A program made the translations under genes and the position numbers. Source: Micractinium sp. NFX-FRZ (lineage: Eukaryota > Chlorophyta > Trebouxiophyceae > Chlorellales > Chlorellaceae). Taken from it: a stretch of DNA of 64,000 nt. The stretch is taken from contig JAPTJF010000282.1 in the NCBI GenBank assembly GCA_029339195.1, positions 19,135 through 83,134 on the forward strand, read 5' to 3'. Of the stretch, positions 8,969 to 57,919 are shown in pieces (within the stretch, counting starts at the first letter, position 1; the number at the start of each line of letters is the position of its first letter). Below the pieces are notes generated by a model. It did not search any database. It had not been told where the DNA came from and was given only the letters and a program-made list of their open reading frames with translations.

Positions 8969-11808
8969 TCAGCTGCCGCCCCGGCTGGTGGTGCTGCCTG
9001 CGCGCCTCGCAGCCGCTTCGCTGGCCGTGAAACTGCCGCCCCGGCTGGCTGCTGGTGAGGAGGAGCGGCTCTGCTCCCTCAGCTCCCGCAGCACTCGGTC
9101 CACAGTCTTGCGGCTGATGAAGCGCTGCAGGCAGGCGGCGGGGCCGGGTTGCGTCCAGGGCAGGGGGCGAAGGGATGGGGGGCAGGGAGGGTCAGCACAA
9201 AGTCCCTGCTTGTCCGGCAGCAGGGCAATGCGCGGCTGCCGGCGTAGCTTCACCTGGCAGGGTTGCATTGCACTCTCAGGCGCCCCTGCTCGGCGGTTAC
9301 AGGCCGACTGACGCTGGCGGCACCCAGCAGCAGTGGCTGGGTGGCCTCTGGCTGGGGCAGAGGAGGCCAGCAGCACGATCCATCAGCAGCGGAGCCCGCC
9401 CCTCTGCCACCTGCCCACCTGCCACCTGCTCGTCCCCACACACTTGCCCCTCTCATGGGGTCCCTACCCCTCCCTGCCCCGTCCATGGCCCTCACCCGGA
9501 ACCTGAGCCCCACAAGGACTTGAGCTCCCACCACATGCCCCTGCCAGCACCCCCCCACACCCCGCACCCCTCCACACACCCTGCACCCCCCTGCCCGGTT
9601 GCTGTCATGTAGCCCTGCACCCACACCCGGCAGCCAGTAGCGCGCCACTCCCGCACCCCCGCCCGCTCGCCCTCGTGCACCTGCACACCCTACAGCCAGC
9701 AGCGCGCCCCTCCCGCACCTCTGCCTGCTTGCTCTTGTGCATCCCCGCAAACTGGGAGGCCTTGTCCAGCTCCCGGTACTTGTCCAGCACAAGGGCCGCC
9801 CGCCGCAGGTCGAGAGACATGTACTTGCCCAGGCGCAGCTCCGGCTGCAGCAGCTCTTCCAGGCTGCGTTCGAGGGGGGAAGAGGGCAGGGAAGGAAGGG
9901 AAGGAAGGGGAAGATGAGTGCGGGGAAGAATCGTGCAGCCGCCCATGTGCGCAGCTCCGGCTGCAGCAGCACTTCCAGGCTGCGTCAGAAAGGAAAAGAG
10001 GAGGGCAGGCAGGGGAGGGCTGACGGGGAAGATGAGTGCAGGGAAGGAGCCACCAAACCACCCACCCACTCACGTGGTAAGCAGTCATCAACAAATCGGG
10101 CATGCAAGCCTCCTGCCGGGCACCCGTGAGCCACACGCTAGCAGCGGCTCTGCCGGCGCATGCCCCACCCACAGCGCCCTCCCAATTTCCTGGGAAAAAG
10201 AAGCAAACCACAAACAGAGGGGCACCCACCTTCCAAACACCATCATCTCGCAGAACAGCAGCGGCTCCGCCAGCTCATCCGACAGCCCAGGCGCCCCCAT
10301 GCTGCCCGCCGCGCGGCTGCAGGGGCGGCAAGGGGTAGAGGAGTGGATGCAGCTGTGAGGTTGAAGGGCAGAGCAGCAGTGCAGGTCAGGTCTGGCGCGG
10401 GCCTGTTGAAGATGGACCGAGACAGGCAGGCACGCACTGTGGTTGCTAGGGCCTGGGGAGGGACAGGCAGGCAGGCAGGCGGCGGGCGGCGGGCTGGCGG
10501 GCAGACACTGGCTGAGAAGGGAGGCTGGAGGGCAGGCAGGCTCAAGGGCAGGCAGGCCAGCTCACCTGATGCCACCCAGGTCGCTGTACAGCCGCTGCAG
10601 GCCAAAGATGTTGAAGGCGGGCACCGCATCTGCACGTGGGCAATAGGCGGGCAGGCACAGAGGGTGACGGGCAGGAGAGGGCGGTGTGTGCCGGGGCAGG
10701 CGGGGCAGCACAGGCAAGGAGGAGTTGGCAGGCAAGCGGCCGGCAGCAGGGCGCCTTTTGTGAGCCCAACGACGCCAGCAACATGGGTGAGTGAGCTCCT
10801 TGGCACAGCCTACTTGCAACCCAGGCCTTCCCACTGCCGGTTCGGCGCTCCTGCTGCTGCAGCCCCAGATGCACCCTCACTTGCCACCCTCCCCTCCATA
10901 GCCCCCCACAAGGCCACACACACAAGAGCTTGCACCCGACATGAGCTGCAGCATGCTGGCGTGCCCCACGTATCGCCTCTTATGTTCTTGCCCTATGCCG
11001 CCCTCGCACCCTCTACCACCGCGGCAGAGAAACACTCACCGGACATGAGCTGCAGCATGGTGGCGTCGCCCACGTACCGCACCATCCCGCGCAGCATGCG
11101 CTCGGCGCTGGCATCGGGAGCCATGCGGTTCACCAGGCTGGCGCACTCCTGGAGCCAGCACATGCCAGTTGAAGCGGAAGGTAAAGTGGAGTCTGCCAAG
11201 TGGTCTGCCAGGAGCCATGCGGTTCACAGCCCAGTGCCGCACAGCAACGCATGGCATAGCGCAGCACAGCATGCCCCGCCCTCCAGCACTTGGTCTTTGG
11301 GTGCAGTATGAAGTCGCGCACATCAGCACCGCCTGCCTCCACAAACGCAGCACAGCACAGCATGGCACGGCACAGCACAGCGCCTTACACCCGGGTGTCC
11401 TCCCCCGCCCGCACTCGCCTTGAGGTAAAGGATGAGCTCATCCACATAGGGGCTGTATGCCGTGCTGCGCTGCTGCTCAGCGGGCGCCCAATCCAGCTGC
11501 TCCGCTTGCGCCAGCAGCTCTGCTGCCTGCGCTGCCATGGCCTGCACCACCAACGCTTCGGCTGAGCCCAGTAGAGAGGCAAATGCAGCGGCACTGCTGC
11601 CCGCCACCTCAGCTGCTGCGCCGCCGCCGCCGGCACGTGCCCCGCCTGGCCCCCTGCTGGTTGCTGTGGCAGCAGTCATGGCTGTGGCAGAGACGGACAG
11701 CACGGTGTGGCCAGACTGCAGGCTGCTGGCGGGCTGCGGCTGGGCGGTATGCTGCGGGGCGGGGCCGCCGGGCGCCGCGCCGGCGGCGGCCTGTCGTGCC
11801 GCTGCTGC

Positions 11809-11852
<44 letters not shown>

Positions 11853-14800
11853 GAGGAGACCCTCCTGGCGAGGGCGCGCTGCCGTGGCTGCTGGTGGGGC
11901 TGCCTGCACGCTGCCGCACGCTGCTGCCGCCCGGCCCCTCACCAGCCCCTGCTGCCCCGCCATCCGCCTGCTGCCTGCCCCGCTGCTGCCCCTCCTCAGC
12001 CTCTAATCCTCCCCTGCCCGGCGACCGGCTGCGGCTCCGGCTGCGTCGCCCAGGGCTGGGGCTCCTGCTAGCGGCGGCGGCTGTTGCGGCCGCCGCCGCC
12101 GCCACCGTCTCTGCGGTGTCCCCACGCGCCTGGGCCAGCGCAAGATCGTCCAGCGGGCCCAGTGCGTGCATCAGCGCCGCCACATTTGCCACCAGCTGCA
12201 GCGCAGCTTCCACCGGGAGATCCGCTTCCCCGGCAGCGGCATCCACCCGCCGCTGCAGCGCCTCCACAACGACGCGGGACAGCATGCGGTCGCGGTACTG
12301 CCGCGCTGCCGGCACCACCTCCCCGGCGGTCAGCAGGCCTTTGAGGTAGGCAACTGCATGGCGGGGACGGGGGAGGGGAGGGGAGGGAGGCGAGAGGGGA
12401 GCGGGGACTGGTGTGTGTGTGTTTGGGGGCCGATGCATCACCGCTCGTGAGCCCGCCCTGCCATCCACCATGCAACCTGCCCCTCCTGCACGCCTCGTCA
12501 AAACAGCAGCGCTACTGCCCCACCAAACACGCTCACACTGCCTGTTCTTGATTTCTTACTGCCCACACCCACCCACCTGTGTCCACGCATGCTCCCGTGT
12601 TGCATACCCCTATGTTTGGACCACCTGCTCTGGTACCTTGCCCACCCTCTGTTACTGCCCGCACCCACCCACCTGTGTCCACGATGTGCTCCCGGATGAT
12701 GCGCACCAGCTGGGGCACCATGGGGGTGAAGGGAGCCTTGAAGGGCGGCCGCTTGTTGCCCGCATCCTGAGGGGCAGGCATGCGGGGGGGTGCGCACATG
12801 CCAAGGAGTGTGCTGAGTGCTGGGCGGCGTGCAAACACACGGCAGAGAGCTCCCACACGTAACTAAGAGCTCCCACAGTAACCAAGCACAGCACAGGCAC
12901 AGGCCGGCAGAGATGAAGGCAAACGGTGCAGGGGCAGAGAGGCTGGCAGGCTTGATGACGCGATTGCTGCCCAGGGGCGGCCCATCGGAGCACCTAAGCA
13001 TGCCCCCCCACACCACAATATGTGTGCACGCCTCCACCACAGAGCACCAGTGCACCAATGTCACGCCTTCTACCAACCTGTGTGCGGAAGGTGGGGGGCA
13101 GCGCCAGCTGTCCAAACAGCTCCTGCCACCGCGCCCCGCTCTCCACCTCAACAGGCGCCGCCAGGCTGTCGTTTGCCACCGCTGCCTGTTGGTGCGAGGG
13201 GCGGGGCCGGGCAGGCAGGCAGGGATGGGAGATTGTCACGCAAAGAAGGCAGGTGCGGGGCACGGTCTGGCAAGCAATCAATCTTTGTGCCACCTGGCAG
13301 CGGCCATGCCTGCCCCCCCGTACCTGCCAGTGCCTGTGTATTGGCCTGTGTCTAGCACCAGCCATCGCATGGTGCCACCCCATGCTGCCGTGACACGCGC
13401 ACCGCCCCCGCACCCACCTGTACTGCCGCCACCGAGGCCGCCTCCAGCAGCTCCTGGTGCTTCCCTCCACCCTTGCACTGTACCGCCCCAGCACGCACCT
13501 GTACTGCCGCCACCGAGGCCGCCCCCAGCAGCTCCTGGTACTTGCCCCGCCCGCCCATCAGCACTTCCTTGATGGCCACGGTGTGGTAGCCACAGTGGTC
13601 TGCAGGGCATCAAAGAAAGATGCACATCACGGCTGAGCAGGCTGTGCAAGTGCGTGGCCCCAGTTGTACAACATGCAAACCCCAGCGCTGTTGCTTCACA
13701 TGCACAGCACCTTGGCCCACCCTGCGTCCACCCTGCCGCCCTCCAGCCAGCTCAGCATCCTGCCCAGCTGCGCTCTATCCCCCCACCTTGCGCCAGGCAA
13801 ACCAGCAGCATGGGGTCTGTCACTACTGACCCACCCACCGTCCGCCCTGCTGCGCAACCAGCCAGCCAGCCAGCCCTGCACCCTTGCACGCTGCCCCGCC
13901 CCCTGCCCACCCGAAACCCCATCTTTCTGTCATGCTCCCGTCCACCCACCCAGTGCAAGGCAGACAAGCAGCAGGAAGTCTTTGACCGTCAGCATGGCGG
14001 CGGCGGCCGTGGCCCCCCGGAACGCAGGCTCAAGCACCCGCTTCAGGGCCGCCACTGCTGTGTCCCAGGCGGCGTCCACCTGCTCAGGGTGGCACATGAG
14101 AGGTAAGGGTGGGTTGACAGGCGACCTCAGGAAGCAGGCAGTGTGCTGCGACTGAGGTGTCCCAGGTGCCAATCCACCCGGGCAAAAGGTCAGAGTGGGT
14201 TGTCTAGCAGCTGAGCGCTGAAAGAAGCTGTTGTGTCACCACTGTGGCACCCGCATGAACTTGCACGGGTGAGCCACGCAGGTGCCCCAACTGCCCAAGC
14301 CCCGCCGGCCCCCTCCCCTCACCTGCGCCACCAAATCCAGCGGCCCCTCTGCGGTACCGACCCCCGCCGTGCGGGATACCGCGTCCTCCACCAGGAAGTA
14401 TCCCACCAGCTGGGTGAGGTACGCCTGGTAGTGGGACAGGAAGTCGCCAGCTAGCGCCAGGTCAGTCGCCAACTGAGGAACCAAGCGGGGCGGGGGGTGG
14501 GGGCGGCAAGGGGTGTGGTGGCTCAGGGCGGTGCGGGCATTGGGGCAAAGCAAGGGAGCAAAGCAGGGGTGGCCGGCACGGGGTGTGGGCAAGCCAGCAA
14601 AGCATGGCGGGGCGCTGCCTTCCGTCCTGACCTCTCTTAAACATGTGCTGCCCCTGCCCCGCCCCACCTGGCACCGCAAGCCCAACCTTCACATACGCCG
14701 ATCCACAACGATGCCAGCCCCCCTCCTTACCCCCACCCTCGCCCCCACCTGCTGCCTCCTGTTCTGTGCGTAGTACTCGACGAACTGCGGCAGGCGGCCG

Positions 14801-17520
14801 AGGCAGGCGTGGATGTGCACGCAGCGGTGGAGCGGCGTCATGTCCACTCCATCCAGCAAGTCGCCTGCATGCGGGGCCAAATGATTTGAAAAGTTGGGTC
14901 AATTATTACTGTCAAGCGTAGTATGTGTGCATTCTCGGGAAAATACAGCAGCGGGGTGGCGCCATGTCCAGGCATGTGCAGCAAACCGCCAACATTGGAT
15001 GTACACTTTAATGCATGGTTCAGTGTCATATGTCTGTCCCCAGAGTGCGTAGCGGCGGAGGGGGTTCAAGCCCAGGTGCCGCCTCGTGGGCAGTGCGACA
15101 GGCGGGGCAGGCGGCAGGAGGGAGGCGCACCGGTTGCGACGGAGGTGTTGGAGCGAGCCATGCCGCGAGTGTGCATTGGCTGTGGTGTCTGCACCGCCGC
15201 TGCCTCTGTTGCCGCCGCTGCTGCTGCTGCTGCTTTGGTTGTTGAGGTGCCAATGCCTGGTGGGGACGCAGCAGACCCTGCTGCTCCTGCTGCTGCTGCT
15301 GCTGCTGCTGCTGGCCCTGCTCCTGCTGAGCGTGTGGGCGAGCTGGCTGCCTGGCGGGCCGTCCGGAACGTGGCCATGCGGGCAGCGGCGCTGCCGCTGC
15401 CGCCAGGGCTCGAGGCGGCACCGCGCGGCGAGCCTGCAGCTGCTGCTCCTGCTGCCGCCGACTGCGGCGTGCCGACGGCGGCTGGCAGGTCGAGGGGAGT
15501 GGGCGGCGCCACGTCCTGCACCCCGGGCGCCCGAAGCGACCGTGCCACAAGCTCCCCAGCCGCCCGCACGTCAGCCAGCTGCTCCAGCTGGGGCAGCAGC
15601 AGCTTGCGCTGCCTCGCCAGCTGCTCCTCCTGCTGCCGCTCGGAAGCGGCCCAGCGGATGGCACGCAGCCCAATGGTGCGCGCCTGCGCCCGCACGCTGG
15701 CCAGCCAATTGTTGAAGTCGGCTATGGCACGCTGCTCCAGTGCCGCCGCCAGCTCAGCCACCCGCTCCCGGAGGAAGGGAGCCAAGGGGCCTAGCTGTGG
15801 TACACCGCCGCCGCCACTGCCGCCGCCGCTGCCGGGCCGCAGCCGCCCGCCTGGCGCCGGTGTGCCGCCACCGCCCCCTGCCGCCCCGCCCGGGGTGCCC
15901 GCCTTCATGGGGGTCCCCTCCCGGCTGCCCCCCACCGCCGCCCCTGCACCCCCGCGCGGCAGCGGCGTCCCCGGGCCAGCGCTGCCGGGCGGCTGCAGCT
16001 GGGCGTCATAGCCGCCGCGCAGCAGGGCGCCGTGGTCCCGCTGTACTGCCTCCAGCGTCTTGTACGCCTTGTACAGCTGCTTGCCCTCAATCAGCTTGGC
16101 CGCCTTCACACACAGCTGCAGCACCTGGAGCGCGCTGCCCACCGCCTGCAGTGAGGAAAGACACACGCACACAAGGCACAAGGGCGGCGTGGCGAGGGGC
16201 TGGGTGGGGTGCAGGGAGCATGGCGAGGTGCAGGGCAGCCATGTTGCCGTTACTGCAACAGGTGCCGTGGGATGCAGCAAAAGTGACTGCCACCCTGCTC
16301 TCCGTCTTTCCTCCAGGCTCGCTCTTCATTCAATGCCCCAACAAATCAACAGCCCGGCCAGCCTACCGCAGCAGCTGGCAGATGCCCAGCTCACCTGCCG
16401 CGCCTCCGCCACGCCCTGCTGCAGCGCCGCCGCCTCCTGCACCTCCTCAAGCCGGCCCGCAAAAGAGGTGCCCGCCGCCTGCAGGGCCGAGGCAGACAGG
16501 CAGGCATTGTCACTCAGGCAGGCAGTGCATGCATGCACGCATGTGTGCTGAAACGCTTAGGCGGCCCTGACCACAACAACAGGTGCCCGCCGCGTGCGCA
16601 GCAGCTGCTCCTTCAGCGCCTGCCGCCCCTCTGCTGCGCCGCTGCCGCCCTCCTGGGAGAGGCATGGAGGCAGGCAGTGCGTGCATGCTGGCATGCCTGC
16701 ATGATGACGCCCTCACGAACGCCCCGAGGGTGTCCCCGCACATGCCACCCTCACGCACTGACACCCACGGCAATCCCTGCGCGTTCAACCCTCCGCCCCC
16801 CGCCCGCCCGCCCCCCCCCAACCCCCCCCCCAACCCCGCACCTGCAGCGTGCCATTGCTGGCCAGCAGGTGCTTGCGCAGGGCAGCGGTGTCGCGCTGCA
16901 TGGTGCCCAGCTCATGCAAGGCGCCTGCTATCTCGGCGGCATTGGACCTGCAGGAGGACAGAGAGGGCACCTCGGGGGCAGCGTGGAGGGGGCTGGATGT
17001 TTGAGGTTGGGGATGGGATGAGCGCAGCAGCCTATTGCAGGCACGTAGGCCCGGGCTATCGGTGCAGGCAGGCGTGCTGTGCCCTCCGCACTGCACCCAC
17101 CTCGCCCGCCCCACACATCTGTCCTGCCCTCAGCACCCACCACCGAACCCTCCTCCCCCACCTGCAGATCTGGGCAATCTCCGCCTCCTTCTCCTCCGCC
17201 ACCTCCCCTAGAAGCTCCAGCACCCTCTCGAGCACACTGCCCTCTTCAGCCCCGCCGCCGCCCTCGCTGTCACGAGTCGTTGCCGACAGCGCCGACTCCC
17301 CGCCGTCGCCGCGCCCCGGCGGCAGCGGCACCGCCGCCCCCGCCGCTCCCATAGGCTCCCCGCTGCCGCCGCCGCGCTCCTCGCCTGCCTCTGCTGAATC
17401 CACTTCGAACACGGCTTTGACCAGGGGCCCCACATCGTGGCTCTCTATCGCTGACTCCACCAAGTCGCGGAGGTGCTCAAGCGTGGCGCCAGAGGCAGCC
17501 AGCGTGCCCGCCTGGTTCAT
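8969..17520 (-). CDS. SEC15: Exocyst complex subunit SEC15 (EXOC6 family)
   Basis: SEC15 is an exocyst subunit that binds Rab GTPases on secretory vesicles and tethers them to the plasma membrane. Seventeen exons join in phase to about 1276 residues: 17520-17162, 16947-16842, 16652-16581, 16478-16395, 16145-15131, 14864-14749, 14472-14323, 14079-13950, 13599-13499, 13185-13078, 12766-12673, 12353-11419, 11148-11040, 10629-10566, 10316-10230, 9863-9719 and 9124-8969. Diagnostic blocks in order are SHDVGPLVKAVFEVD, LCVKAAKLIEGKQLYKAYKTLE, DLLDGVDMTPLHRCVHIHAC, a FLVEDAV block and the EQLDWAP..YVDELILYLK helix. Plant SEC15 is near 790 residues. The excess lies in two low-complexity inserts: Ala/Pro/Gly-rich in exon 5, and RS-like plus poly-Ala in exon 12. 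Intron 3 has a weak GTTGTT donor; intron 12 needs a GC donor to keep phase. Several introns hold exon-edge echoes. The gene starts 625 bp from the divergent AIP2 gene. Confidence 0.9.
9628..9743 (-). repeat. Echo of SEC15 exon 16 3' edge
   Basis: The exon end and donor at 9695-9743 recur about 63 bp further into the intron (9628-9682), including the string AGCGCGCC and the Arg/Cys-coding surround. Confidence 0.75.
9833..10070 (-). repeat. Tandem duplication (about 117 bp unit) across SEC15 exon 16 acceptor
   Basis: GCAGCTCCGGCTGCAGCAG occurs at 9835 (true exon start) and 9951. The following intron also repeats: AAGATGAGTGC at 9911 and 10029. Exon edge and intron were duplicated together. Confidence 0.9.
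10936..11090 (-). repeat. Echo of SEC15 exon 13 3' edge
   Basis: GACATGAGCTGCAGCATG occurs at the true exon end (about 11043) and 104 bp into the intron (about 10939), followed by similar CCCACGTA(C/T)CGC. Confidence 0.88.
11117..11232 (-). repeat. Short echo within SEC15 exon 13 / intron 12
   Basis: GGAGCCATGCGGTTCAC is present in exon 13 (about 11118) and again in the upstream intron (about 11212), 95 bp apart. Confidence 0.75.
12557..12695 (-). repeat. Echo of SEC15 exon 11 3' edge
   Basis: ACCCACCCACCTGTGTCCAC lies at the true exon end (about 12663) and 95 bp into the intron (about 12568), with TGCTCCCG following in both. Confidence 0.85.
13413..13555 (-). repeat. Echo of SEC15 exon 9 3' edge
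   Basis: Roughly 55 bp including the donor recur 81 bp away: TACTGCCGCCACCGAGGCCG at 13421 and 13502, then CAGCAGCTCCTGGT(A/G)CTT in both. Near-perfect. Confidence 0.93.
13786..13975 (-). repeat. Decayed echo of SEC15 exon 8 3' edge
   Basis: The intron at about 13789-13812 encodes LLVCLAQGG in the same sense as the exon end LLVCLALGG at about 13949-13974, 160 bp away. Confidence 0.6.
16465..16590 (-). repeat. Direct repeat at both ends of SEC15 intron 3
   Basis: AGGTGCCCGCCGC spans the end of exon 3 (16581) and the start of exon 4 (about 16467-16478), so the intron lies between two copies of one short sequence. Confidence 0.7.
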
Positions 17521-18145
17521 CCCGCCTGCTGCTGCCGGCCGCAAGCAAGGCGCCTGCAGGAGAGGGGGCAGCATCTGGTGGGCCAGCAGATGGGGAGGGC
17601 AGGGGAGCAGCGCGGGAATGGCGGCGGGCGGCAGCAAGCGGCGGCGGGTGGCGGCAGGCCCCCCCATCTTCTGCCTGCCAGCCTTGCCTTCGTGGCAGCA
17701 GAAGCATGCGACTCCAGGCCACTTCCTCGTACGGGCAAGCGGAACAAGGCCGTGCCAGCTTCAAGTCTGGGGCCGAAGCGATCAAGCGATCCATGATAGA
17801 CTCACCGCTTGCTCCTGCCGTTCCCCACCGCTATGCGCACTCTCTGATCACGCTCAGCACCCCATATGGGCGCGAAAAGCCGGCCGCTTGCGGTCACCGA
17901 TTGCTTTGCAGCGAAAGTAGCTGCTCCAGCCCCGGGTTGGACTCCGTCAAGTCACAGGACCGGGATGGGCGTTGTGGGAAAGTTCAAGCGAATGCAGCAG
18001 GGGCCCATGTTGCATGGGGAGGCTCCGCAACTTCCTTCCTGCGACGGCTTCCCGTGATTGTTCCTGCTGCTTTACGGTTTACTCTGATCGGAGACAGGTT
18101 CTGACCCTGTGCATTGGTGTCCCTACCTCTCTTGCACGCCTCAGA
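17521..18145. promoter_or_regulatory. Divergent promoter region SEC15 / AIP2-like
   Basis: 625 bp between two start codons facing away from each other, so it should carry both promoters and 5' leaders. No TATA-like or other named element could be assigned by eye. Confidence 0.45.
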
Positions 18146-21156: not shown

Positions 21157-24100
21157 TTACAGCCCCCAGTCCTCCTCCTCCGACCACAGCGCGTCGTCGT
21201 GCCCGTCCCCCTCCTCATCAGGCTCCTCAAATTCTGTGAGGTCCACCGAGTAGCGCAGCACGCCGCCGATGCCGCCAAAGCCCTTGCAAAACTGGTTGCC
21301 CTCCTCGGAGCGGTCGGTCACAAACTCCAGCAGGCACCCAAACTTCTTGTACCCGTTGGCCAGCCACTCCAGCATGGGTTGCTGCAGCACGGCAGAGCGG
21401 AGAGGAAGCAGGTGAGTGAAGGGTAAAAACGAGGCATGAAGTAGGTTGGCCAGCCACTCGAGCATGGCTTGCTGCAGCAGGAAGGGCGGGCACGGCAGGG
21501 CGGAGAGGGACGGATGGAATGGAAGGGTTCAGGGAAGGGACGTGTGCCAGGCCAGACCGCGCACAGGTCGAGTGAGGCGGGGGAACGAGTGTGGGGAGGT
21601 GAGGTGGCACCACACTTCCTGCAGCCATTGGCCAGCCATTCAAGCAGGGGGCTGCAGCTCGGCGGGACACGCGACAGCACACAGCCCACCCCGCAACATA
21701 CAACGCGGTACTGCCCCATAACAATGCAAGGTGCACAACAATGGCCCGCGCACACTGTGTACATGCAACCCAGAGTGGCCCCACCATTTCAAATGTGTGC
21801 ACAAACCAGCGCGCTGCAGCGGCCCCCGCCCCCACCTTGTCGGCGACCTCCACGCCCAGGCGTGTGCACGCCACAGCGGCTTTTCCACCTGCCCTGACCA
21901 TGCCCAGCACACCCACACGTGTGCCCCAAAACTAGCCCCCGCCCCCCACCTTGTCTGTGACCTCCAGGTCCAGGTTTGTGGCCGGGTCCTTGAAGTGCTT
22001 GGCATCCGTCTCCTGCTCCTTGGTCAGGTACTTTACCTCCTGGACGCCTGCGGCAGCGGGGCCACAGCGTGGCACAGCATGGCACAGCGTGAGGGCACGT
22101 CGTGGGCACGGTTTGAAGGTGCCCCCCCCGCTCCTGGGGAAGTGCAGCACACACAGGGCAGGCAGCAAGTCAGCAGCCTGTAGACCAAAAACGTGTCCAG
22201 GATCTCCCGTCCTGCCCAACACACACGCCAGCACAGCATGCACGGCACAGCAGGCAGCACACGCAGCGTGCACAGCATGCACCCAGCACGCACCCGTGGA
22301 TGCGTTGGTGAACACGTATCTCTGGATCTCCAGGTTCTCCCACACAATCAGCGTCTCCACCGCCCCCATCTCCAGGCACGCCAGCGTGTCCTTCACCCCA
22401 AACACAAACTTTCCAGTGTCCTGGCTGATCTGGTCGAAGAAGCTGCGGGGAAGGTGGGCGGAGGAGGAGGGGGAGGGGAGGCAGGGGGGGAGGTGATGCA
22501 GTGGGAGCAGCGTCCTGCCTGGTCTGCTTGAGACAGCTGTGGAGCGCTTGCAGGCGACGGCGGGACTGGGGAGCTACACGAGAGCGCGCCACCAGCCCGC
22601 TCTGCGCCTCGGTATGGCCAAATGGTGCCGCCAACAACAGCCGATTTTCTTGGCACGCGCGCCACTGCCCTCTGAGCACCCAGTGTGCATGAACCGCTAG
22701 AGCAGCGTGTGCCCGCACCCACCTGCTGATCAGCCGCTTTTCCTGCACAAACTTGACGTTGGCTAGCGTCTCTGCCGACAGCTCGATGGCCTGATTGAAC
22801 CCATTCTCGCCGCCTGGAGGGGCAAAGAACACAGGCAAGGGTAGGGAAACCATGAGACAGAGGCCAGCAGGCAGCGGGGGAAGGGAGCAGAGAAGCAGAA
22901 GGGCAGGGTGCAACGGCAGAAGACGGCAGCAGGATCAAGAGAGCAGCAAGGCGCTGCCGGAGGAACACCAGGTGGCGAGGAATTGGAAGGAGCAGGGGGA
23001 GGCAGCAGGGGTGCATTACTGCTCTAGAAAAGGTGCGTGTGCGTGTGCGTATGCATGCATATGTGTTTGCTGGTGTAGCAAGATATGCCAGCTCCCCACG
23101 AGGCGGCCGTGAGGTGAGCTCGCGGCGTGTGGGGGGGGCTGCCCCCGCCTGGTTTGCGAGACCGGGCGGGGGGGATGTTTCTGTAGGGTAACCGCCATTT
23201 GATCTGCTGCCATATGCGTGGCGCGAGCGCCACCGGCAGGAAATTGGTAAGGCACCCAAATGTGTGCACTCCTTGCTTCTCGTCTTTTCACAGACACCAT
23301 TGCCCGGCTCCCGGCGCCTGTGTTCCTTACTCCGCATCCGTCTAACTGCCCCTCACCCCCTCCAAAAACACATGCGTGCACAGCACTCCAAAAACACATG
23401 CATGCACAACACAAGAAGACATCAGCGATTGAACAAGAAACCCAACGTGGGAGACATCCACCACGGCCAGCACGCCCGCCTGCCTCCAACCAACAATACC
23501 CACATGCGTGCTCAACACAAGCAGACATTGGGCACGATACACAAACCCACCCACCGTATGAGACGTCCACCACGGCAAGCACCACGGCCTGCAGGCGCGG
23601 GTCAAACATGTCACTCTGGCTGAGCTCCGTCTTGAAGTCGGCGCTGCCCGCCAGCACCAGGCCCGCCACGTTGGGGCGGTCCGCGGTGATGAAGAACTGC
23701 ATGAGGAGAGGACGCGAGGGAGAGGGGAGGGAGGGGGAGGAGGGGAGGGGTGAGGAAGCGGGGGCGCATGTGCCAGCACCGGGCCTGCCGCAGCCGCCGC
23801 CCGCGGTGGCAACCTCGAAGCACACCATGCCAGGTCAGCACACCATGCCACGTCAACACACCTGCGCCACCAGCTTATGCGTGACAGCACCAGCCCAACC
23901 CACAACCTCAGCACACCCCTGCCACGTCAGCGCACCTGCACCGCCAGCTCCGCCACCTTGCGCACGTAGTTGTGCCGCTTCTCCATGCGCAGGCGTGCAA
24001 AGCGCAGCGCCGACTGGCCACCGCGGCCGTGCTTCTTGGGGAGGTCCACAGACACTGTGGGGAGAGAGGGACGGAAGGGGGTGTGGAGAGCATAGAAAGG

Positions 24101-46273: not shown

Positions 46274-48906
46274 TCAGCTACGCTTCTTGGTGCCCTGCGC
46301 CGCCGCGCCCTTCTTGCCGGCCGGCGGCTGCTGCTGGCTGGCGTGCAGGTGGCTAAAGTGCTTCAGCGTGCGCTTCAGGGCTTCGTCCACCGGGACCTGC
46401 AGAGGACGATGGGTGCGCATGAAAGCCGTGGGCATATGGGGCGGGCGGGCGGGTGGACCAGCCAGGCAGTCGCACCAGCCAGCCAGCCGCACCCAGCAGG
46501 GGCCAACGGCAGTACTGGGGGTGTGGGTGCACAAAGGGCGCCTGCCTGCCTGCCTGCCACCCTACCCCAACCCAACCCACCTTGGGCGAGTAGCCAAAGT
46601 CCCGCTTGGCAGCGGCGCACGAAAAGGTGCGGTTGGCGGCGGACAGGGTGATGCGGAAGGGAGTGAAGTCAGACTGCAGGTGGTGGAGGGCAGGAAGGGG
46701 AGGGCTGGGCGGGTCAGGCTCCAGGGGAGGGGGAGGGCAGCGCACAGCACAGCGCCGCACAGCACAGCACAGCGGCGCCTCCCGACCGACCTGCAGGTTT
46801 TTGCCAAGCAGGCAGCACAGGTCCTTGCCAAACAGGCGGCACAGCACAGCACAGCACAGCACAGCACAGCACAGCGGCCCCACCTCCCCACCGACCTGCA
46901 GGTCCTTGCCAAACAGGCGGCACAGCGGTACGACCAGGTACTGCACGATGAGGGCGATGAAGTAGATGAGGAAGAAGGGCAGCCTGCGCAGAGGGGGGAC
47001 GGGAAGGTGAGGGGAGGGGTAGGGATGAGTGGGGTCAGGGAGGGGGGCGGAGGGGAGGGAGAGGAGGCAGGGGGCGGGAAGGGGTGGGGAGGTCAGGGCG
47101 GCGGGCCCCAACCCCCAGGAACGCGCTGGTGCCACATGTGCCTAACCACATACTGCCTTGATAGAGCCAGGCAGCCCGCACACTTGCCCACCCTGCACTC
47201 CCTCCCTCCCTGCCTCCCCCCAACCCCTCACTTGATGTGGGGCCGCCCGTAGCCCAGCCCCTCGCACACGTCCCCCATGAACCCCCAGAAGGGGCGGGGG
47301 TCGTCGTTTGTGACGAAGTAGGGCTTGCCAGCCAGGGGGGAGTCCAGGGACAGGGCGTCCGCCGCCTCAATGTGCGCCTGCAGGAGGGTGGGACCGGTGG
47401 ACGGTGAAAGGGAGAGTTGACGGTGGTGAGGTTGAGCCAAGTAAAGAGGGGAGCCCAGGAGCAGGCCACCGGCCGCAGCTTTGATGTGCACCTGCCAGCG
47501 GGCGGCGGGGGTGAGTGTGTGGGTGTATGCACCATTCCCTCCCACCGCACTGCCCGCATACGTCCCGTCGGCACATCTCCGGTCTCCCCATGCCCAAACC
47601 CATCAAGGAATCCTAACCAGGCTAACAAGCAGTGTGCCCTCCCGCCACGCACCTGTGCCACGTTGCCTGCATACGTCCAGTCCATCTCGTTGCGCCCGCT
47701 CCCAATCACGTACTTCATCTTGCCGGCCTTGGCGTTCCGCACAGCGGTGGGCACCATCAGCGTGTCCCACTCGCCAAATATGCCGCTGGGGCGCAGGGCA
47801 CAGGTGGCAAGGGTGCCGCCCCGCCCGTTGGCTGCCAGGGCCAGCTTCTCGCCTGGGGCGGGGGGCAGGCAGGGGAGGAGGGAGGGGCAGAGGGGTTGAG
47901 GTTCAGAGGGGTGAGGTGCAGGGAGGGAGGTGCACGGGGGCATGGTGGGCCTAGGCAGCGCAGGGAGGTAATGGGTTGCAAGCTCTCATCAAAGGCTGCC
48001 CCGATGCCCCCCAAACCCTCGTCACCCTTCCACTTTACGCAGCACCCTCGCCACCCGCCTCACCCTCGATCTTGGTGTGGGTGTAGAAGTCCATGGGCTT
48101 GCCGGCATACCCCTGCGCCTCGTCCACAGCGTGCAGGTCGCGCCCATCAAACACGACGGAAGCCGAGGAGGTGTAGATGAGGCGGGGCACTCCGGCTGCC
48201 ACGCAGGCGTCGATGACGTGGCGCGTGCCGTCCACATTCACGGCCCGCATCAGCTCCTCGTTGTGCGCGTTGTGCGCGGTGGGGGCGGCCGTGGCCACGT
48301 GGAACACCACGTCCTGGCCTGCAGGGGACGGCAATCGGGTGGGTAAGCAGGTGCTTGTGAGAAGCAGGAGGCAGCGTGCAGCAGACGCCGCATCGTTGTG
48401 CCGTGGAGGGCAGCAGTGACCTCCTGGACGGATGGCGAGCGGCACGGGGGTCACATGACGGCACAACAGCGGGCTCTGAGCTTCCATGAGCACACATGAC
48501 GCCCACATGACGCCCATGCCGGCAGCCCGAAGAATTGAACACGCAGGGAGGCCCTCTGCACGGTCCTCCTGGCTCCCGCCCCGAACTCCAGCCATTGCAC
48601 GCACCCCCACCCCATCACCTGCGCTCGACCCACACTGCCGCACCTCCCACCCGCCCCATCCACGCCTCCCGCTCGCTCACCCTTGCACGCGGCCTCCACC
48701 TGTGCCGGCTGCCGCAGGTCTCCCACAATGTAGGTGGCCCGCTCCTCTCCCTCCACCGCCCGGATGTCAAACACCGTCACCTCCCAGCGCCCGCTGTCCA
48801 GCAGCTGCTGCACCAGGTGCCGCCCCAGGAAGCCGCTGCCGCCGGTGACGAGGCAGCGCTGCTTGGCGGGGGCGGCCGCCTTGCGGCGAGGGCTCAGCCA
48901 CACCAT
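46274..48906 (-). CDS. NSDHL: Sterol-4-alpha-carboxylate 3-dehydrogenase, decarboxylating (NSDHL/ERG26 type)
   Basis: The enzyme oxidises the 3-beta-hydroxyl of 4-carboxysterols with NAD(P), releasing the C4 carboxyl during sterol C4 demethylation at the ER. Seven exons (48906-48681, 48318-48064, 47852-47653, 47377-47232, 46983-46896, 46673-46581, 46396-46274) give 376 residues, close to human NSDHL (373). The Rossmann glycine motif is VTGGSGFLGRHLV near residue 20. The catalytic Tyr-x3-Lys is YTHTK (DFYTHTKIEGEK), preceded by LIYTSSASVVFDG with the active-site Ser region. Further family blocks are LRPSGIFGEWD and a GNVAQ-AHIEAA junction. A hydrophobic helix (PFFLIYFIALIVQYLVVPL) near residue 280 and the C-terminal KKRS (a KKXX dilysine signal) place it in the ER membrane. 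Exon 5's 3' edge is repeated three times in the gene. Confidence 0.93.
46784..46930 (-). repeat. Three copies of sterol dehydrogenase exon 5 3' edge
   Basis: CCTTGCCAAACAGGCGGCA at the exon end (about 46903), again at about 46823, and diverged at about 46799, interleaved with GCACA pentamers. Confidence 0.92.
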
Positions 48907-50046: not shown

Positions 50047-53000
50047 ATGTCGCTCTCGGCCGAGGCGGCCCCCACGCGGCCCCCGAGCGGCCCTCCACCT
50101 GCATATGACGATCGCAGCTGGGCGCCGGCATCATTGACAGGCGGAGCGACGGCAGCGGCCCCGCCGTCCACCCGGCGGACGCAGGCGGACCTGGAAATCC
50201 CCCCGGCACCGCTGGTGAGACGGACAGCCGCTGTGCTTGCAGAGGACCACAGCTGACCCATGGCAGAAGTGGGGCTTGGCAGTGTACACCAGCAAGCAAG
50301 GCTTCAACGGCAGCCCACCGGCCACTGCTCCCAACGGGAAGGACGCTTGTGACGGCACTGCCGCCAGCCACCGCCGGCAGCAGCCCCTCTTGAAGCTTCT
50401 TTGCCTGCGCCTGCGCTCGCCAGAAGCCCAAACTCTGGGTGCTTGCCCCACTGCTTTATTGGGCACCTGATCCACCCACAGTCCTTGCAGGCGCTTGTGG
50501 CCATGCAAAAAGACAACTGGCACCAGAAGCATCGGCCGTAGCCGGCGCATGAAGCATGCCTGGAGGGCCCCTTGATCGCCAACCAACCGTCTGTCCTTCA
50601 TTCTGTCTGCTTTTGTTCCTGCAGGGGCTTGTGGCCCTGTGGGACCTGTGGAGGAAGACAACTGGCACCCTCAGCATCGACCTCAGCCGCCGCAAGATGG
50701 TGAAGGCAGCCGCACCGGGGGACTCGCTGTGGCGCGTGCGCCCCGAGAGCGTGCGAGCCGAGGCGGTGGCAGGCAGACGCAGGTGCGGCGGTGCTTGCTG
50801 CTGCTGCTGCTGCTGCTGCTGTGCAGCCAAACAGCTTCGTGCTGGCACTCAGCTGTTGTGCGCAGCACGGCGCTGCTGCCCAGCGGTTCCAGGCCTGCAC
50901 AGCAACCGCGCCGCCACCCACCCCTGCCTTCCTCTGGGTGCAGGGGGCGGCCGCCGGCGCGCCCAGTGGCGCCACGCTACGGAGCCCCGCCCGGCGCATA
51001 CGGCGCCCCGCCAGGCGCCTACGCCGCCCCGCCTGCTGCCTATGCAGCCCCCGGTGGCTACCAGAGCAATGCTGCCTACCAGGGCGGCCTAGTGGACCTG
51101 CCCTCCTTGTCGTTTATGGACACGGGGGCTCGGGTGAAGGTGATGCGCCACATACAGGTGGGTACCACACGGTGTGCGTGTGTGTGTGTGTGAGGTGTGG
51201 GCAGCTTTGTGGGCAGGGACGGACCTGCAAGTGTTTATTAATATGGGGGTGCGGGGGGGTCATGCCACACCCACGTGGGCACCACTGTGTGCTCCCTACT
51301 GTTGTGGTGTGGGCAGGTGGGTCGGCGTGGGGCGAGCCTGCATATGCTATATGAGTATCGGGGCGCGGGCGACGGTCATATGGAACATCTAGAACCACCA
51401 CACCCTGCCCTGCTCCCCGTGTTTACCACACCCGCCCCTCCTTGGACCCCGCATCGCCTCGACTTACACCCATCCACACCCATCCACCTGCACCCCACCA
51501 CCTTCCCGCCCACAGTTTGGCCCCCAGGTGGAGGTCACCCGCTCCACGGGTCTCACCCGCCAGGTGCCGGCGCTGGACCTGGGGGTGGGCCTGGCCTTTG
51601 AGCTGGACACGGCGGAGCTGCAGCCGCAGGTGGGTTTGTTGGCAGGCCGCAGGTGTGTAGGGGTGGCCGCGGTGTGTGGGTGGTCGGCAGCAAAGCGACT
51701 TGGCTTGTTAGTGGAATTGGAAGACCGCTTCGTGTGATTGGTGGGGTGGCAGCATCCAAGGAGGTGGTTGGGCTGGGCGCCTTTGAGCGAGCTGGATCAC
51801 AACGGGCCTGCAGCCTCAGGTGTGTGATTCCATCCGTGGAACAGCACACAGTGTGTGGGGAATCACTTGGCATCCTGTCCCTCAAGGCCCTGCCTTGCCC
51901 CTCCCTCTCTTTGTCCGAAGCAGAAATTTTGAAACCAATGATGCTGTGCTGTCCGCCCACAGGCCCGCCTCAAGTTCCGGGACATCCTGTCCCTCAAGGC
52001 CCTGCCCTACCCGGCGCTCAGGATCCAGAAGCGGCTGCGGGCCCCCAACAGCAGCTGGGGCGTGCGGCTGAGGTGCGCGGGGCAGCAAGCGGTTGGGGTG
52101 CAGGGGGCGCTGGCACGCGGGGCAGCAGTGCTGCTTCCATCACCGTTGCATCTTGCTGGCCACGCTGCTCTTGCCAACCAACCTCTGCAATGACCCTCCT
52201 GCCGCTCCCATGGGAGTGTTGCATTCCACCCTCCATACCCTCCCCTCCTCGAGAAGTGTTGCATTCCTCGCACACTGTGCCCACCTTGCCTGGTCACTAC
52301 ATGCCCCCCAGCCCACCCTGGGGCTTGCTCTCCCGCCGCACGACCTTGTGCCGGCCTGCCGGCCTGCCTGCCGGCCTGCCCGCTGACCACCCCCGCTGAC
52401 CACCCTGCCTAGCGTGTGTCTCTCCCTGTGCCCCTGCCCCTCCAGCTAGGAGTGCCCCCCGGGAACCTGGCCGCCCTCTACCCGCCCTCATGCTGCCTGC
52501 CCATCCGCCCCCGCTGCCTCCCCTTCTTCCCTCTCTCTCCACTGCAGCTACGAGTGCCCCCTGGAAAACATCACCACCTTCTACCGCCCCCCGGCCCGCC
52601 TCATGCTGTCCATTGACAACATGCACAGCAACGGGGTGCAGCTGACGCAGGCGGGGCTCGAGGTGGGCGGGCAGGGCGGGGCGGGGAGGGCAGGGCAGGG
52701 CTGTGCGGCTAGCCCAGCACAGGCAGCATGGGCCCACCGCTCATCTTGCCGCTGGATTGCACAGGCGTCCCATCGCTCCAGGCAGCATGTTTTGATCCTG
52801 CTGCGCCGAGCGGGGTTCAGCGGGCAAGCTTCGACACGTCCTCTTGTGCCTCCCTCTTCACCTCCTGACCCCCTCCATCCCTCCCGTGACCACCGCTGCA
52901 GTTCAACTTTGCGCAGCTGTTTGGGGAGAAGCAGAATGCGCAGTTCCGGGCAGCCGGCCTGGTGGCACTGTGAGCGCTGCTGCTGTTGTCTTGCTGTTGT

Positions 53001-54127: not shown

Positions 54128-55970
54128 TCAGAAGACGGGGAAGAGCAGCCCAACAACCACACCCAGCGTGAGTCCGGCATACACCTGCAGCGCACCAGGC
54201 AGCACGTGCGTCCTCCCAGTCAGTCGGTCGGAAAAATTATAGCATGTGTGCCTGGCTGCCTGGCCAAGGAGCATGCGCCAGCTGGCGCTGCCCAAGGGGC
54301 CTGCACCCCACGCTGCCCACGACGCGTCGTACCTCCAAACTCACAAACAACGTGCAATCAGGCAGCCTCGTGCGCTAGCATGCCACAACGGTGTGCTCAT
54401 GAACAACGGTTCGAACAACACCTGTGAGAGCAAGGGCTGCTTACCTGGCGGGGTGTGTGGCCCAGCACCTCCTTTAGCTTCCGCTCTGCCTTCGGGTGCC
54501 CCTCGAGCACCTCCTTGGCCACAATGTTCAGCACCTGCACAGCACAGCGTGCACAGCATGGCACAGCATGGCGCAAAGTCAGCACAGCTTGGTGAAGCCT
54601 GGGGCCAGCCCTCCAGCACCTCTTCGGGCACGGCGTTCATGGCATGCGCCACGCATGCTGCGCCTGACGCCATGCTGCTGCTGTCTCTGCCGTTGCCGCT
54701 GCTGCCACTGCTGCCAGTGCTGCTGCTGCTGCTGCTGCCGCTGCAGCTCCTTTCCCTTTGCTCTTCATCTCTGCATGGCAAAAGCGGGCGACAGAGATCG
54801 GCTGCTGCTGGCCGGCGCACCTCTGCCTGGAGACCTGCATGCCGCCGAATGCCCATTGCATCATACATCACAATAACGCTGCATGAGTGGGAGAGTGGGA
54901 GAGGATGCACCGCATGATTTGGACGCTCAAGGCACAGAGGCATCGAATGAGCCGAGCGATGCATGTGTGCATGCCAATGACATGGCAGGGATGCGGTTGC
55001 TCGTTCACGGTGCAGGCGACCCTGGGTTCAGCACCTATGACCTGCACCCATGACGCCGACAGAAAGACAGAAGGCATGTACCGGCACACAGCAGACAGCA
55101 ACAGAGAGCACGCTGGCAGTGCACACATGCCTGTTCACAAGCCATGCTGCCTCCCCGCCTCCCTGCCCGCACCCTCAATGCCAGGCTGGCCGGCCTCCTG
55201 GCTGTTCCTCTTCAACCCATTCCCCTTTGAGGCCCGCCCTGCACCTGCTCCCAGCCGCACCTGAAGCAGACGGAGACCGCAAACAGAGGGCTCCCCAGGC
55301 CTTGCGACATGGCGATCGCTGTGGCCACGGAGGAGCAGAGGGCGGAGTGGGAGGAGGGCATGCCGCCGCTGTCGAAGAACGCGCGCACATCCCACACCCC
55401 CGTCTTGTAGGCTTTGGTGAAGATCTTCAAGAACTGCGCTGAGAACCAGCCGCAGAAGCCGACCACAAACACATAGTTTGAGGAGAGGTCTGCCAGAATG
55501 GAGGCGCCGCCGCGGCCCACGGGACCCGCCGCCGCCGCCGCGCACAGCAGCAGGCTGCCCAACCGCTGCGGCGATGTTGGGCTGCTGCCGGAGCTTGCTA
55601 GTCTGCGGGCAGGTAGGTTCGGTGAGGGAGTGAGGCAGGTAGGAGCAGGGCGGGTGCAGGCAATTGTGAGTGCTGTGCGTCTGCAGGCACGGGCGGCGCC
55701 GCCAGCGCCGCCGCCCCGCTGCCACCCTTAACCCCACCTTTGCAGCTGCTGGGAGGCCGCCGTTCGTTGCTCCACCACTGCTGCTGCTGCCCGCTGCACG
55801 GTCGCCGCTAGCCGCTGCACAAGGGAGGGCGGCTGCTGTCCGCTCTCTTGCCACACTGCCGCGCTACTGCTGCACTCCGTTCGCCATCTGCGACACCGCA
55901 ATGGCGAGGTTTTGCTGGAAGACTGCAGGGAGGGGCCTGCAAAGCAGGCCCGCTGCACCAGGCCGGCCAT
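54128..55970 (-). CDS. Divergent PAP2 family (DUF212, YuiD-like) membrane protein, plastid-type leader
   Basis: Five exons (55970-55738, 55602-55261, 54878-54821, 54534-54445, 54184-54128) give 259 residues. The first 115 are Ser/Ala/Gln/Arg-rich, typical of a plastid leader. Then comes the DUF212/divergent-PAP2 core: NYVFVVGFCGWFSAQFLKIF, FFDSGGMPSSHSALCSSVAT, SVIVMYDAMGIRRHAGLQAE, LKEVLGHTPRQVYAGLTLGV and a final helix ending GLLFPVF. MPSSHSA corresponds to the histidine-containing phosphatase motif of PAP2 proteins. Plant and bacterial (YuiD) members have the same order. The biochemical activity of the family is not settled. The start is uncertain: the frame stays open upstream and another ATG lies at 56129, but the 55970 start leaves room for a promoter shared with the gene at 56199. 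Confidence 0.85.
54495..54650 (-). repeat. Echo in the DUF212 gene at exon 4 5' edge
   Basis: The exon reads LNIVAKEVLEGHPKAE; the intron about 105 bp upstream in the gene still reads MNAVPEEVLEGWPQA in the same sense. Confidence 0.85.
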
Positions 55971-56198
55971 CGGGTCGCTGCGGCCGGGGTGGTGGGGGTG
56001 GGCAGGAGGGGGCAGGACTCGCAGAGCACTGCAATTGTGGACTGCCGGATGCTGCAACGCAGTAGTGCAAAGCAGTAGAGATGCAGGTAGCGCCCGGCCT
56101 AGCTGGATTGAGCTGAGCTGGTGCGACATGGTCGCTGCGGCTGCGCACCCTTTGTCAATTCTTTGCAGTGCAGTGGAACAACCAGTACCTGCAGCATC
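55971..56198. promoter_or_regulatory. Divergent promoter region DUF212 gene / plastid membrane protein
   Basis: 228 bp between the two chosen start codons; both products look plastid-targeted, so a shared light- or plastid-related control is possible but not shown by any motif I can name. Confidence 0.4.
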
Positions 56199-57919
56199 AT
56201 GCCGGCCACCCTCCTCGCCGCAGCGGCTGCACCCGCAGTCAGCAGCCATCGCGCTGGCCCCTGCGCCAGCAGCAGGCGGCCATTCACCACACTGCGGCCC
56301 CAGCACCGCCGGTGGCAGCATCTGGCGCGTGCAGAGGGCGAGGGCAGCAGTGAGCAGACCACCCAGGTGGGAGCGGCGGGTCGGTGGTGGCGGTGGCGGC
56401 GGCTGCAGCCCTTCTCTGGAGGCTGATTTACTCTCAATCTTAATGGTCATCGTCGGCCTTCTCTGCCGCGCCGGGCACGCTGTCGTCCTCATTTGCCTGC
56501 TGCCCTCACCACGCGCTGCTGCTGCCGCCCCTGCTGCCTCCCCTCCCCGCCGCAGTCGCCGCCAGCGCAGCAGCAAGCGCAGCCGCCGGCAGGGCAGCAG
56601 GAGGAGGAGCCAATCTGGGTGCGGCGTGAGCGGGAGCGCCAGGCACAGAAGGAGTCGGGTGCCAAGGGAGACCTGCCCTTCGGCGCCTACCTCCTCTTCT
56701 CCTCCTTCACCGCCATTGCCGCGGTGAGCCGCCAGCCTGCCGCTGCCGCTGCCGCCCCAAGCAGCAGCAGCTGCAATTGCTGCGTGCATGCTGTTGCCAC
56801 GGGGCTGGGCAGCTGCCTAAGCGGAGCCGCGCTGCTGCCAACGCCATGTGCTGCCTGTCTGTGCTGTGTACCATGCTGCCGTCGCGCTCGGTGCGCCGCC
56901 CTCTCAGCCGTGCCAACAGACGACTCTGGCTCACCCTGCCCCTCACTGCACTCTTCCCCAGGCCCAGGCGCACTTCATCTTTTTGTGCATCAACGAGCAA
57001 GCCATCTTGGATGCCGTTTTTTCACACAAGCGCACTCTCTCTCGTTCCCTGCCACCCTGATCTCTTGCTCCCCCTCCCTCTCACTCCCTGTGTCTACAGG
57101 TGGGCTCCATCTTTGAGTACATCAACCAGAACCCGATCTTTGACGTGATTGGCCCCGACTCCCCGCTCTACGTTCCCATCCTGGGCTTCTTTGCCGTCAC
57201 CGGCATCCCTACCTCCGGCTACCTCTTCTTCAAGGCAAGCGGTGAAGAGCGAGGGATGCAGGCTGCGTGTGACGGGGAGAGGATGTGTGTAGGTTGCACC
57301 AAAGAGTGACTACCTCGTGCCAAAGTGTGTGGGCTTCTGAAACCGGTGCCAGCATCCCTGCCTGCGGGTTCTCTGCCCTTCAAGGCAAGGGTGTTGTTGG
57401 TGTGCCTGCTGGGCGCATGCTGTCTGCACCCTTGCTGAGCGCTGCTGCGGTTGAACCCCCGCTGTTGACTGCTGCTGCTGCTGCCGCTGCACCGCCTGCT
57501 GCGGTTGGCCCCCCTCTGTTGACTGCTGCTGCTGCCGCTGCTGCTGCACTGGCGCCTGCTGCGCCTGCCACTGCGTGGCGCTCAGGCGGGCTGCCATGTT
57601 TGTGGTGGCGCGTCCTTGCCTAGCGTGGCTGCATGTGCTGCTTTGCTGCCACCGTCGTGCCCGCCTCGGGCTTCCTCTCCCGCGGGGTGTGGGGAGTGTG
57701 GCGATGCACTGCCTTCGTTTGGCGCACGCTTCTTGCACGTGTTAGAGATTGTAGTTTGCAGAGGGATGCTGTGGGAAGCGCCCACCATTGAGGTGCTTTG
57801 CGTGCACGTCACAGAAGTGAAGAAAGCACACACACACACACCATCTATTTCGTGCTGTGCAGTCGGTCCAGGCGGCCAATGCTGAGGCGGAGCGCATGGA
57901 CAAGCTGGACGGCTACTGA
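56199..57919 (+). CDS. Small plastid-type protein with two membrane helices, family not recognised
   Basis: Four exons (56199-56366, 56556-56723, 57100-57234, 57863-57919) give 175 residues. The N-terminus (MPATLLAAAAAPAVSSHRAG, then Arg/Ser-rich to about residue 50) looks like a chloroplast transit peptide. A charged segment (EEEPIWVRRERERQAQKESG) leads into two hydrophobic helices, YLLFSSFTAIAAVGSIFEYI and YVPILGFFAVTGIPTSGYLF, separated by NQNPIFDVIGPDSP. The short tail is AANAEAERMDKLDGY. A thylakoid or envelope location is an inference from the leader and helices. The third intron keeps phase only with a GC donor (AAG/GCAAGC), a strong GC-AG consensus. That intron also contains an echo of the exon-3 end. 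Confidence 0.8.
57185..57400 (+). repeat. Echo of exon 3 3' edge with its GC donor in the plastid membrane protein gene
   Basis: GGCTTCT...ACCGG..., CATCCCT(A/G)CCT and CTTCAAGGCAAG recur about 148 bp into the intron, so even the unusual GC donor is duplicated. Confidence 0.88.

Follow-up and report, generated by a model that had tools for sequence, protein, structure and literature searches.

Direct copies of exon edges in the adjoining introns of the green alga Micractinium sp. NFX-FRZ

Genes of the window and their exon-edge copies

The DNA analyzed here is a 64-kb window of contig JAPTJF010000282.1 (positions 19,135 to 83,134; assembly GCA_029339195.1) from the green alga Micractinium sp. 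NFX-FRZ, whose genome comprises 66.07 Mb in 838 contigs; "the window" always means this whole stretch. The analysis confirms the preliminary observation that, in nine of its genes, the end or the start of an exon is found again, in direct orientation, inside the intron that adjoins it. The window was analyzed together with 200 kb from ten other contigs (264 kb, the training sequence) and a further 80 kb of held-out sequence, for which the gene-finder model and the thresholds were frozen beforehand (162 intron edges in its first 40 kb and 318 in total). Training and held-out sequence together have 1446 intron edges, and at 97 of these (6.7%) the neighboring intron contains a direct copy of the exon edge that scores at least 16. 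These are 53 donor-side copies and 44 acceptor-side copies (32 and 32 in the training sequence, 21 and 12 in the held-out sequence).

Gene models are ab initio predictions by a semi-Markov gene finder, trained without annotation on the window and the 200-kb sample. In the 264 kb it returned 47 genes with 611 exons (median exon, 107 bp; median intron, 228 bp), and the splice signals that it learned are AG/GTGAGT-like for donors and TGCAG/G-like for acceptors. The repeat scan collected direct repeats 25 to 500 bp apart, scored against local composition, with simple repeats filtered out and a score of at least 18. The edge scan used a main threshold of at least 16 and a looser one of at least 14, and matches with less than 12 bp of exon were dropped. 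Copies at a copy distance (d) above 400 bp (2 of 66 in the training sequence) were left out of the geometry and of the combined counts.

The preliminary description of this stretch counted 13 genes, whereas the rebuilt models give 11, one of which merges Sec15 with its neighbor; in this first model (1-17794), Sec15 is joined to a cysteine-rich repeat protein encoded on its own strand. The eRF1 model aligns to the best solved eRF1 over residues 5-440 of 451 (E = 1.8e-215) with small gaps, one of which consists of four surplus residues whose source is a misread exon-edge copy. The epsilon-COP model aligns to a solved homologue over residues 2-284 of 291 (E = 9.2e-65), and the predicted protein is 81% identical to the Chlorella vulgaris and C. 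sorokiniana proteins and 79% identical to that of Micractinium conductrix. Pfam matches among the window proteins are RIO1, SBP, 3Beta_HSD (PF01073), DUF212, Sec15_C, RING, and TBC, and a Pfam search of the Pro-Tyr-rich and plastid-type proteins matched no family. At a score of at least 14, 30 of 256 window edges have a copy, and these fall in exactly the nine genes named in the preliminary description; at a score of at least 16, the count is 22 of 256, in eight of those nine. The RING and TBC genes of the window have no edge copies in the edge scan.

Sec15 (minus strand) has donor-edge copies in its introns at 9622-9679 (source 9684-9741; d, 62 bp; 83% identity) and at 10933-10976 (source 11037-11080; d, 104 bp; 89% identity), and a donor-junction copy with an intact splice site at 12552-12587 (source 12648-12683; d, 96 bp). 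Its acceptor-edge copy at 9949-10001 (source 9833-9885; d, 116 bp) has a gapped alignment that spans the whole unit, with 35/37 exon positions and 62/80 intron positions matching. An 81-bp in-frame tandem pair in the same gene at 13401-13546 (13401-13465 and 13482-13546; 92% identity) could be a coding repeat of 27 residues or, alternatively, an intron copy read through by the model.

In eRF1 (minus strand), the acceptor edge of the last exon (21355-21389), an exon verified against the solved eRF1, is copied at 21445-21479 (d, 90 bp; 94% identity) and a second time at 21610-21650 (d, 272 bp; 80% identity). The donor-edge copy at 21823-21866 (source 21937-21980; d, 114 bp) contains 12 bp called as a microexon that is absent from the best solved homologue. 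Another donor-edge copy, at 23440-23483 (source 23549-23592; d, 109 bp), has lost the donor GT, and a donor-junction copy lies at 23843-23875 (source 23917-23949; d, 74 bp). The copy at 24911-24972 (source 24838-24899; d, 73 bp) is a young, near-complete tandem copy of an acceptor edge, with a spacer of about 0 and 92% identity.

RIO1 (plus strand) has acceptor-edge copies at 27295-27323 (source 27417-27445; d, 122 bp) and 29480-29513 (source 29592-29625; d, 112 bp) and a donor-edge copy at 29024-29051 (source 28942-28969; d, 82 bp). In the provisional exon structure of RIO1 at 28861-29606, an in-frame stop arises across a predicted intron, and several tandem repeats lie nearby (29081-29282). 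The SBP-domain gene (minus strand) has a donor-edge copy at 37354-37392 (source 37556-37594; d, 202 bp) and an acceptor-edge copy at 38665-38704 (source 38548-38587; d, 117 bp). In epsilon-COP (plus strand), donor edges are copied at 44097-44135 (source 44000-44038, in an exon verified by the homologue; d, 97 bp) and at 44452-44477 (source 44350-44375; d, 102 bp). The start of the true last exon of this gene (45606) is preceded by three serial copies at 45262-45554, which are 123, 111, and 112 bp apart from start to start; the two nearer copies include a pyrimidine tract and AG.

The 3-beta-HSD gene (minus strand; PF01073) has two donor-edge copies at 46778-46845 (source 46883-46926; d, 105 and 81 bp), which are flanked by GCACA pentanucleotide arrays (46742-46773 and 46839-46875). 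The copied exon segment likewise begins with GCTGTGC, the sequence that the arrays show on the other strand, a hint of microhomology-mediated slippage in this instance. The Pro-Tyr-rich gene (plus strand) has acceptor-edge copies at 50504-50552 (source 50649-50697; d, 145 bp), 51871-51907 (source 51983-52019; d, 112 bp), and 52437-52465 (source 52539-52567; d, 102 bp). The plastid-type gene (plus strand) has an acceptor-edge copy at 56965-57011 (source starting at 57100; d, 132 bp; score, 17.0). The DUF212 gene (minus strand), another of the hosts first named, stands at the looser threshold but is a weak case, with an acceptor-edge copy at 54609-54639 (source ending at 54534; d, 109 bp) that scores 15.4 and so falls below 16; for these last two genes, the coordinates are calculated from match parameters that include d. 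Two or more copies at a single edge are found in the window at 45262-45645 and 46778-46926 and also in L014L015, L018L019, and L020L021 (joined), and existing copies may breed further copies in place.

Frequency and decay of the copies

In the training sequence, 66 of 1128 edges score at least 16 with their own exon, compared with 0, 0, and 0 in three partner shuffles, and 89 of 1128 score at least 14, compared with 2, 2, and 1. Held-out edges with a copy number 33 of 318 versus 0 in each of five partner shuffles, and the first held-out part by itself gives 14 of 162 versus 0, 1, 0, 0, and 0 in five shuffles. Since partner-shuffled edges score at about zero, base composition is excluded as the cause of the edge copies, which disposes of the GC-rich composition that had been named as a possible source of chance matches. 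Similarly, among 495 donor and 500 acceptor edges, matches of a 45-bp exon edge with its own intron (score of at least 16) occur at 8.1% and 8.8%, respectively. The controls give 0.3 to 0.5% for the edges of other genes (3378 each), 0.6 to 1.5% for sequence deeper in the exon, 0.4 to 0.6% for the reverse complement, and, when the edge is aligned with the next intron instead, 1.3%.

The repeat scan finds 116 direct repeats in the 264 kb versus 0 to 4 in five dinucleotide shuffles. The same scan finds 4 inverted repeats versus 1, 1, and 2 in three shuffles, which is approximately the shuffle level. In 63 of the 116 direct repeats, one copy includes exon sequence and the other is noncoding, and 24 of these pairs are in the window. 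For 58 of the 63 pairs, the exon edge faced by the noncoding copy borders the very intron in which that copy sits; the edge faced is a donor in 30, an acceptor in 29, and no annotated edge in 4.

The median copy distance is 111 bp (97 copies), and alignments often include the splice site and the adjoining intron tract. Plain tandem duplications are seen at 24838/24911 (d, 73 bp), 9833/9949 (d, 116 bp), and 45411/45523 (d, 112 bp, full length), and with permissive gapped scoring, similarity reaches to within 20 bp of the copy in 35 of 59 cases. Training introns with a copy are longer than those without (346 versus 226 bp, p = 2e-10), and the difference disappears when the copy distance is subtracted (201 bp, p = 0.45), as predicted if one unit was inserted. 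Held-out introns behave in the same way (352 versus 257 bp, p = 7e-7; p = 0.19 after subtraction), which upholds the suggestion that the copies lengthen introns. The 64 training copies diverge from the exon by 0 to 31% (median, 14%) with no young cluster; therefore the process looks recurrent, as had been proposed from the mixed ages of the window copies. Purely exonic duplications had been expected to be few, and exon-exon repeat pairs do number only 4 versus 14.5 expected.

At codon positions 1, 2, and 3, the copies mismatch the exon at rates of 0.118, 0.148, and 0.171. Since mismatches occur at all codon positions, we conclude that the copies decay as noncoding DNA; the contrast of positions 1 and 2 with position 3 (p = 0.03) is expected because the exon itself also changes at silent sites. 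No frame bias is seen in the copy distances of the training edges. GT or AG is kept in 42 of 52 aligned copies versus a neutral expectation of 38.7, and the excess of copied splice-site scores over neutral is not significant (P = 0.10 for donors and 0.06 for acceptors). The copied splice sites are thus neither clearly silenced nor clearly maintained.

Origin and survival of the copies

The copies are bounded in three ways. The copied exon part exceeds 57 bp in only 5 of 97 cases, compared with 42 expected for a uniform end point, and in 1 of 59 repeat-scan matches, compared with about half in simulation; the 12-bp filter fixes the minimum of this length. Of the implied units, 8 of 78 have an intron part below 50 bp versus 36 expected, as do 4 of 33 held-out ones. 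The copy rate also depends on exon length, with 11/440 edges at exons below 80 bp, 85/870 at exons of 80 to 299 bp, and 1/136 at exons of at least 300 bp (p = 5e-5 for the longest class versus the middle class). The training sequence by itself has 0/118 at long exons and a peak at exons of 100 to 200 bp, and the edges of long exons have approximately normal splice scores and intron lengths. Exons are recognized as units under exon definition, and about 50 nucleotides is the usual lower size limit for this recognition. We infer that the limits on exon reach, intron part, and exon length are the work of a splicing filter.

We next consider whether edges are favored over intron interiors. Observed edge and interior duplications are in the ratio 44:13, compared with simulated edge/interior ratios at d of 80 to 200 bp of 0.75 to 0.9 in the full run and 0.9 to 1.3 in a simpler run. 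In the full simulation, random tandem duplications, substitutions, and indels were applied, the gene finder was rerun, and the results were classified like the real data. In a like-for-like scan of the 604 introns long enough for pseudo-edges, 6.9% of real edges score, compared with 1.15% of interior pseudo-edges in introns that lack an edge copy (44/3834, in 12/527 introns) and 2.1% over all introns (98/4678), a figure that includes the intron halves of edge units. By intron count, 80 of 723 introns have an edge copy and 12 have just an interior copy; placements in interiors (117,724) outnumber those at junctions (63,624). Some of this contrast is a bias of detection and survival, and survival together with slower decay accounts for part of it: one exon copy is conserved, and therefore an edge copy decays on one side only and is found more easily, with a simulated advantage over interior copies of 1.4 to 1.6. 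After correction, the edge excess is approximately 2- to 4-fold by rates and up to approximately 8-fold by intron counts, an estimate (about 2- to 8-fold, depending on the counting) whose basis is ab initio gene models plus a decay process that had to be assumed. Neutral survival, offered previously as the account of the pattern, thus explains part of the edge bias but falls short of the edge excess and of the limit on exon reach.

Based on these results, we propose that short tandem duplications recur across existing exon-intron junctions, that the exon-side splice site is kept in use, and that the other copy turns into intron; we give this reading a probability of roughly 0.8. The duplications would mostly be 60 to 160 bp long, and the alignments that reach the unit end suggest that they arise at the DNA level. 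The splice site touching the intact exon would stay in use, so that the protein is unchanged; the second copy, which has a splice site of its own and as a rule includes less than 60 bp of exon, would become intron. The intron would thereby gain one unit in length, and the copy would then decay as noncoding DNA. Survival would probably need approximately 50 bp or more of intron in the unit and a copied exon piece shorter than the spliceosome needs to recognize an exon, and host exons of about 80 to 300 bp, recognized as units, would permit it. Wholly intronic duplications are rarer than this account leads one to expect; we favor extra formation at junctions as a possible reason, which might occur, for example, through fill-in of staggered breaks. 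Junctions may be duplication hot spots, or splicing may filter the survivors, or both may be true. The combined form is more tentative and stands at distinctly less than even odds: junctions may focus tandem duplication about 2- to 8-fold above interiors, with the survivors set by exon recognition (at most about 57 bp of exon, at least about 50 bp of intron, and exons of 80 to 300 bp), so that introns grow and each copy dates its event.

Several points weigh against this proposal. The gene models are ab initio predictions and were trained on the tested sequence except for the held-out part. In 24 of 59 cases, the copy does not align to the unit end, so that tandem origin there is an extrapolation, and the permissive scoring may overextend the others. 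A filter on survival can only remove edge duplications and cannot alone make them outnumber interior ones; therefore some junction-focused formation is implied, if the excess holds. Distances peak at 100 to 119 bp in the first samples (31/75 versus 25% expected from a smooth filter model, p = 0.002), although in the second held-out part only 5 of 19 fall there and the peak is not repeated. For this reason, a sharp 110-bp unit length, which seemed real in the first 78 cases, is not put forward. Finally, exon-edge windows show only about a 2-fold contrast over intron windows, as one-sided decay predicts, and intron-intron pairs number 38 versus 38.0 expected in a plain position null (12 of the 38 are short-period repeats below 50 bp).

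The last two figures agree with a purely neutral account, in which duplications fall at random everywhere, exonic ones are purged, and edge copies seem enriched through a partner held by selection. The depletion of exonic pairs and the better detection of edge copies in simulation also fit it, but simulation allows a ratio of only about 1.5 where 6.9% stands against 1.15% (2.1% in all introns), and neither the bound on exon reach near 57 bp nor the avoidance of long exons follows from it, so that we regard it as unlikely on its own. An account in terms of junction hot spots comes closer, although we still place it somewhat under an even chance. Here breaks or nicks located in or close to the ends of exons, in transcribed DNA with strand asymmetry (or where nucleosome-size exons have their nucleosome borders), would lead, through fill-in and end joining, to homology-independent tandem duplication of the overhang. 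It is consistent with the restriction to direct copies, with an edge excess beyond the simulated detection bias, with the highest rate at exons of 100 to 200 bp, and with the tandem duplications that breaks with protruding ends give in mouse embryonic stem cells (in the parts of PMC5730883 and PMC8355091 drawn on here). The link to breaks, nicks, or chromatin is conjectural, however, hot spots alone leave the 57-bp limit unaccounted for, and inspection by eye shows no shared motif at the exon-side end points.

It is improbable that the copies are retained for a function, whether to tune splicing or to make poison isoforms by serving as decoys or alternative splice sites. The retention of GT or AG, the splice scores slightly above neutral, and the junctions with several copies could be read in this way, but the retention is within neutral expectation, decay affects all codon positions, the copy distance has no frame bias, and divergence is spread over 0 to 31%. 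Birth of introns from tandemly duplicated exonic AGGT sites, the Rogers model, is very improbable here even though it likewise involves tandem duplication with splice motifs (PMC3443670, in part). It needs d to equal the intron length, whereas d is about 110 bp and the introns are about 350 bp; the copies, which often bring their own junction and adjoining intron, end a median of 174 bp (donor) or 229 bp (acceptor) from the other end of the intron. The AGGT route to new introns raised in the preliminary description is therefore not supported, the copies being inside existing introns at distances well below the intron length. An assembly artifact is unlikely because the copies differ from the exon by 0 to 31%, with a median of 14%. 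Taken together with gene-finder error, to which the ab initio models and the short predicted exons that fall on some copies might point, artifact is scarcely credible as the explanation, since the eRF1 and epsilon-COP exons are verified by homologues and the held-out sequence gave the same outcome with a frozen model.

Two further candidates were set aside. Templated insertion by polymerase theta leaves copies in both orientations near breaks, and it is ruled out by inverted copies at approximately the shuffle level. Intron sliding, as presented in the part of PMC7730772 drawn on here, has no bearing on exon-edge copies.

Known duplications, consequences, and predicted microexons

The proposed tandem duplication across junctions is a known kind of event (tandem genomic duplication) with another place and outcome, namely, intron growth at high frequency and within regular limits. 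The comparisons that follow draw on parts of the cited papers. In the potato RdRp gene, tandem duplication over an intron-exon boundary yielded a new intron (PMC4974935). As in the acceptor-side copies of the alga, the potato unit joins the 3' end of an intron to the 5' end of the next exon, and it carries a branch site, a polypyrimidine tract, and an acceptor. Unlike the alga, potato presents one case, in which the new intron was born with a cryptic donor; the alga has approximately a hundred cases, at donors and acceptors, which by the gene models lie inside an old intron. Tandem duplication is also described as a route to new introns more generally (PMC3443670; Drosophila cases in PMC2891723). 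In gains of the Rogers type, tandem duplication similarly supplies the duplicate splice motifs and the protein can stay unchanged, but the source is exonic and the new intron is as long as the unit, whereas the algal source sequence extends over a junction, and it is an existing intron that becomes longer. The small tandem duplications that follow repair of breaks with protruding ends in mouse cells (PMC5730883, PMC8355091) are, like the proposed algal duplications, direct, tandem, and mostly homology independent; in contrast, they come from mammalian cells in which breaks were made experimentally, the overhangs being about 50 bases long, and the parts of those papers used here make no link to splice junctions. 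Among the open-access literature matches listed, which cover titles and the starts of abstracts and leave subscription journals mostly outside, genome-wide exon-edge copies in introns are not described.

The history of intron lengthening can seldom be traced easily, since in an intronic duplication the two copies decay alike. When a duplication crosses a junction, one copy is under selection, and the exon serves as a reference for its decaying twin, so that events can be counted and dated. If splicing sets the limits on the copies, these limits would measure, naturally and in vivo, how exons are recognized in an alga. Alternative splicing could draw on the copies as a large potential reservoir of nearly complete splice sites, and so could the birth of new introns, of which potato is an example.

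The copies also touch on gene prediction. Annotation pipelines may commit the same microexon error at copies as was seen in the eRF1 model. Predicted microexons of 8 to 21 bp overlap copies at 21836-21847 in the window and, in the joined sequences, at approximately 14230-14250 in L016L017, 3364-3375 in L014L015, and 2201-2208 in L020L021; these are either gene-finder errors or copies that have turned into microexons.

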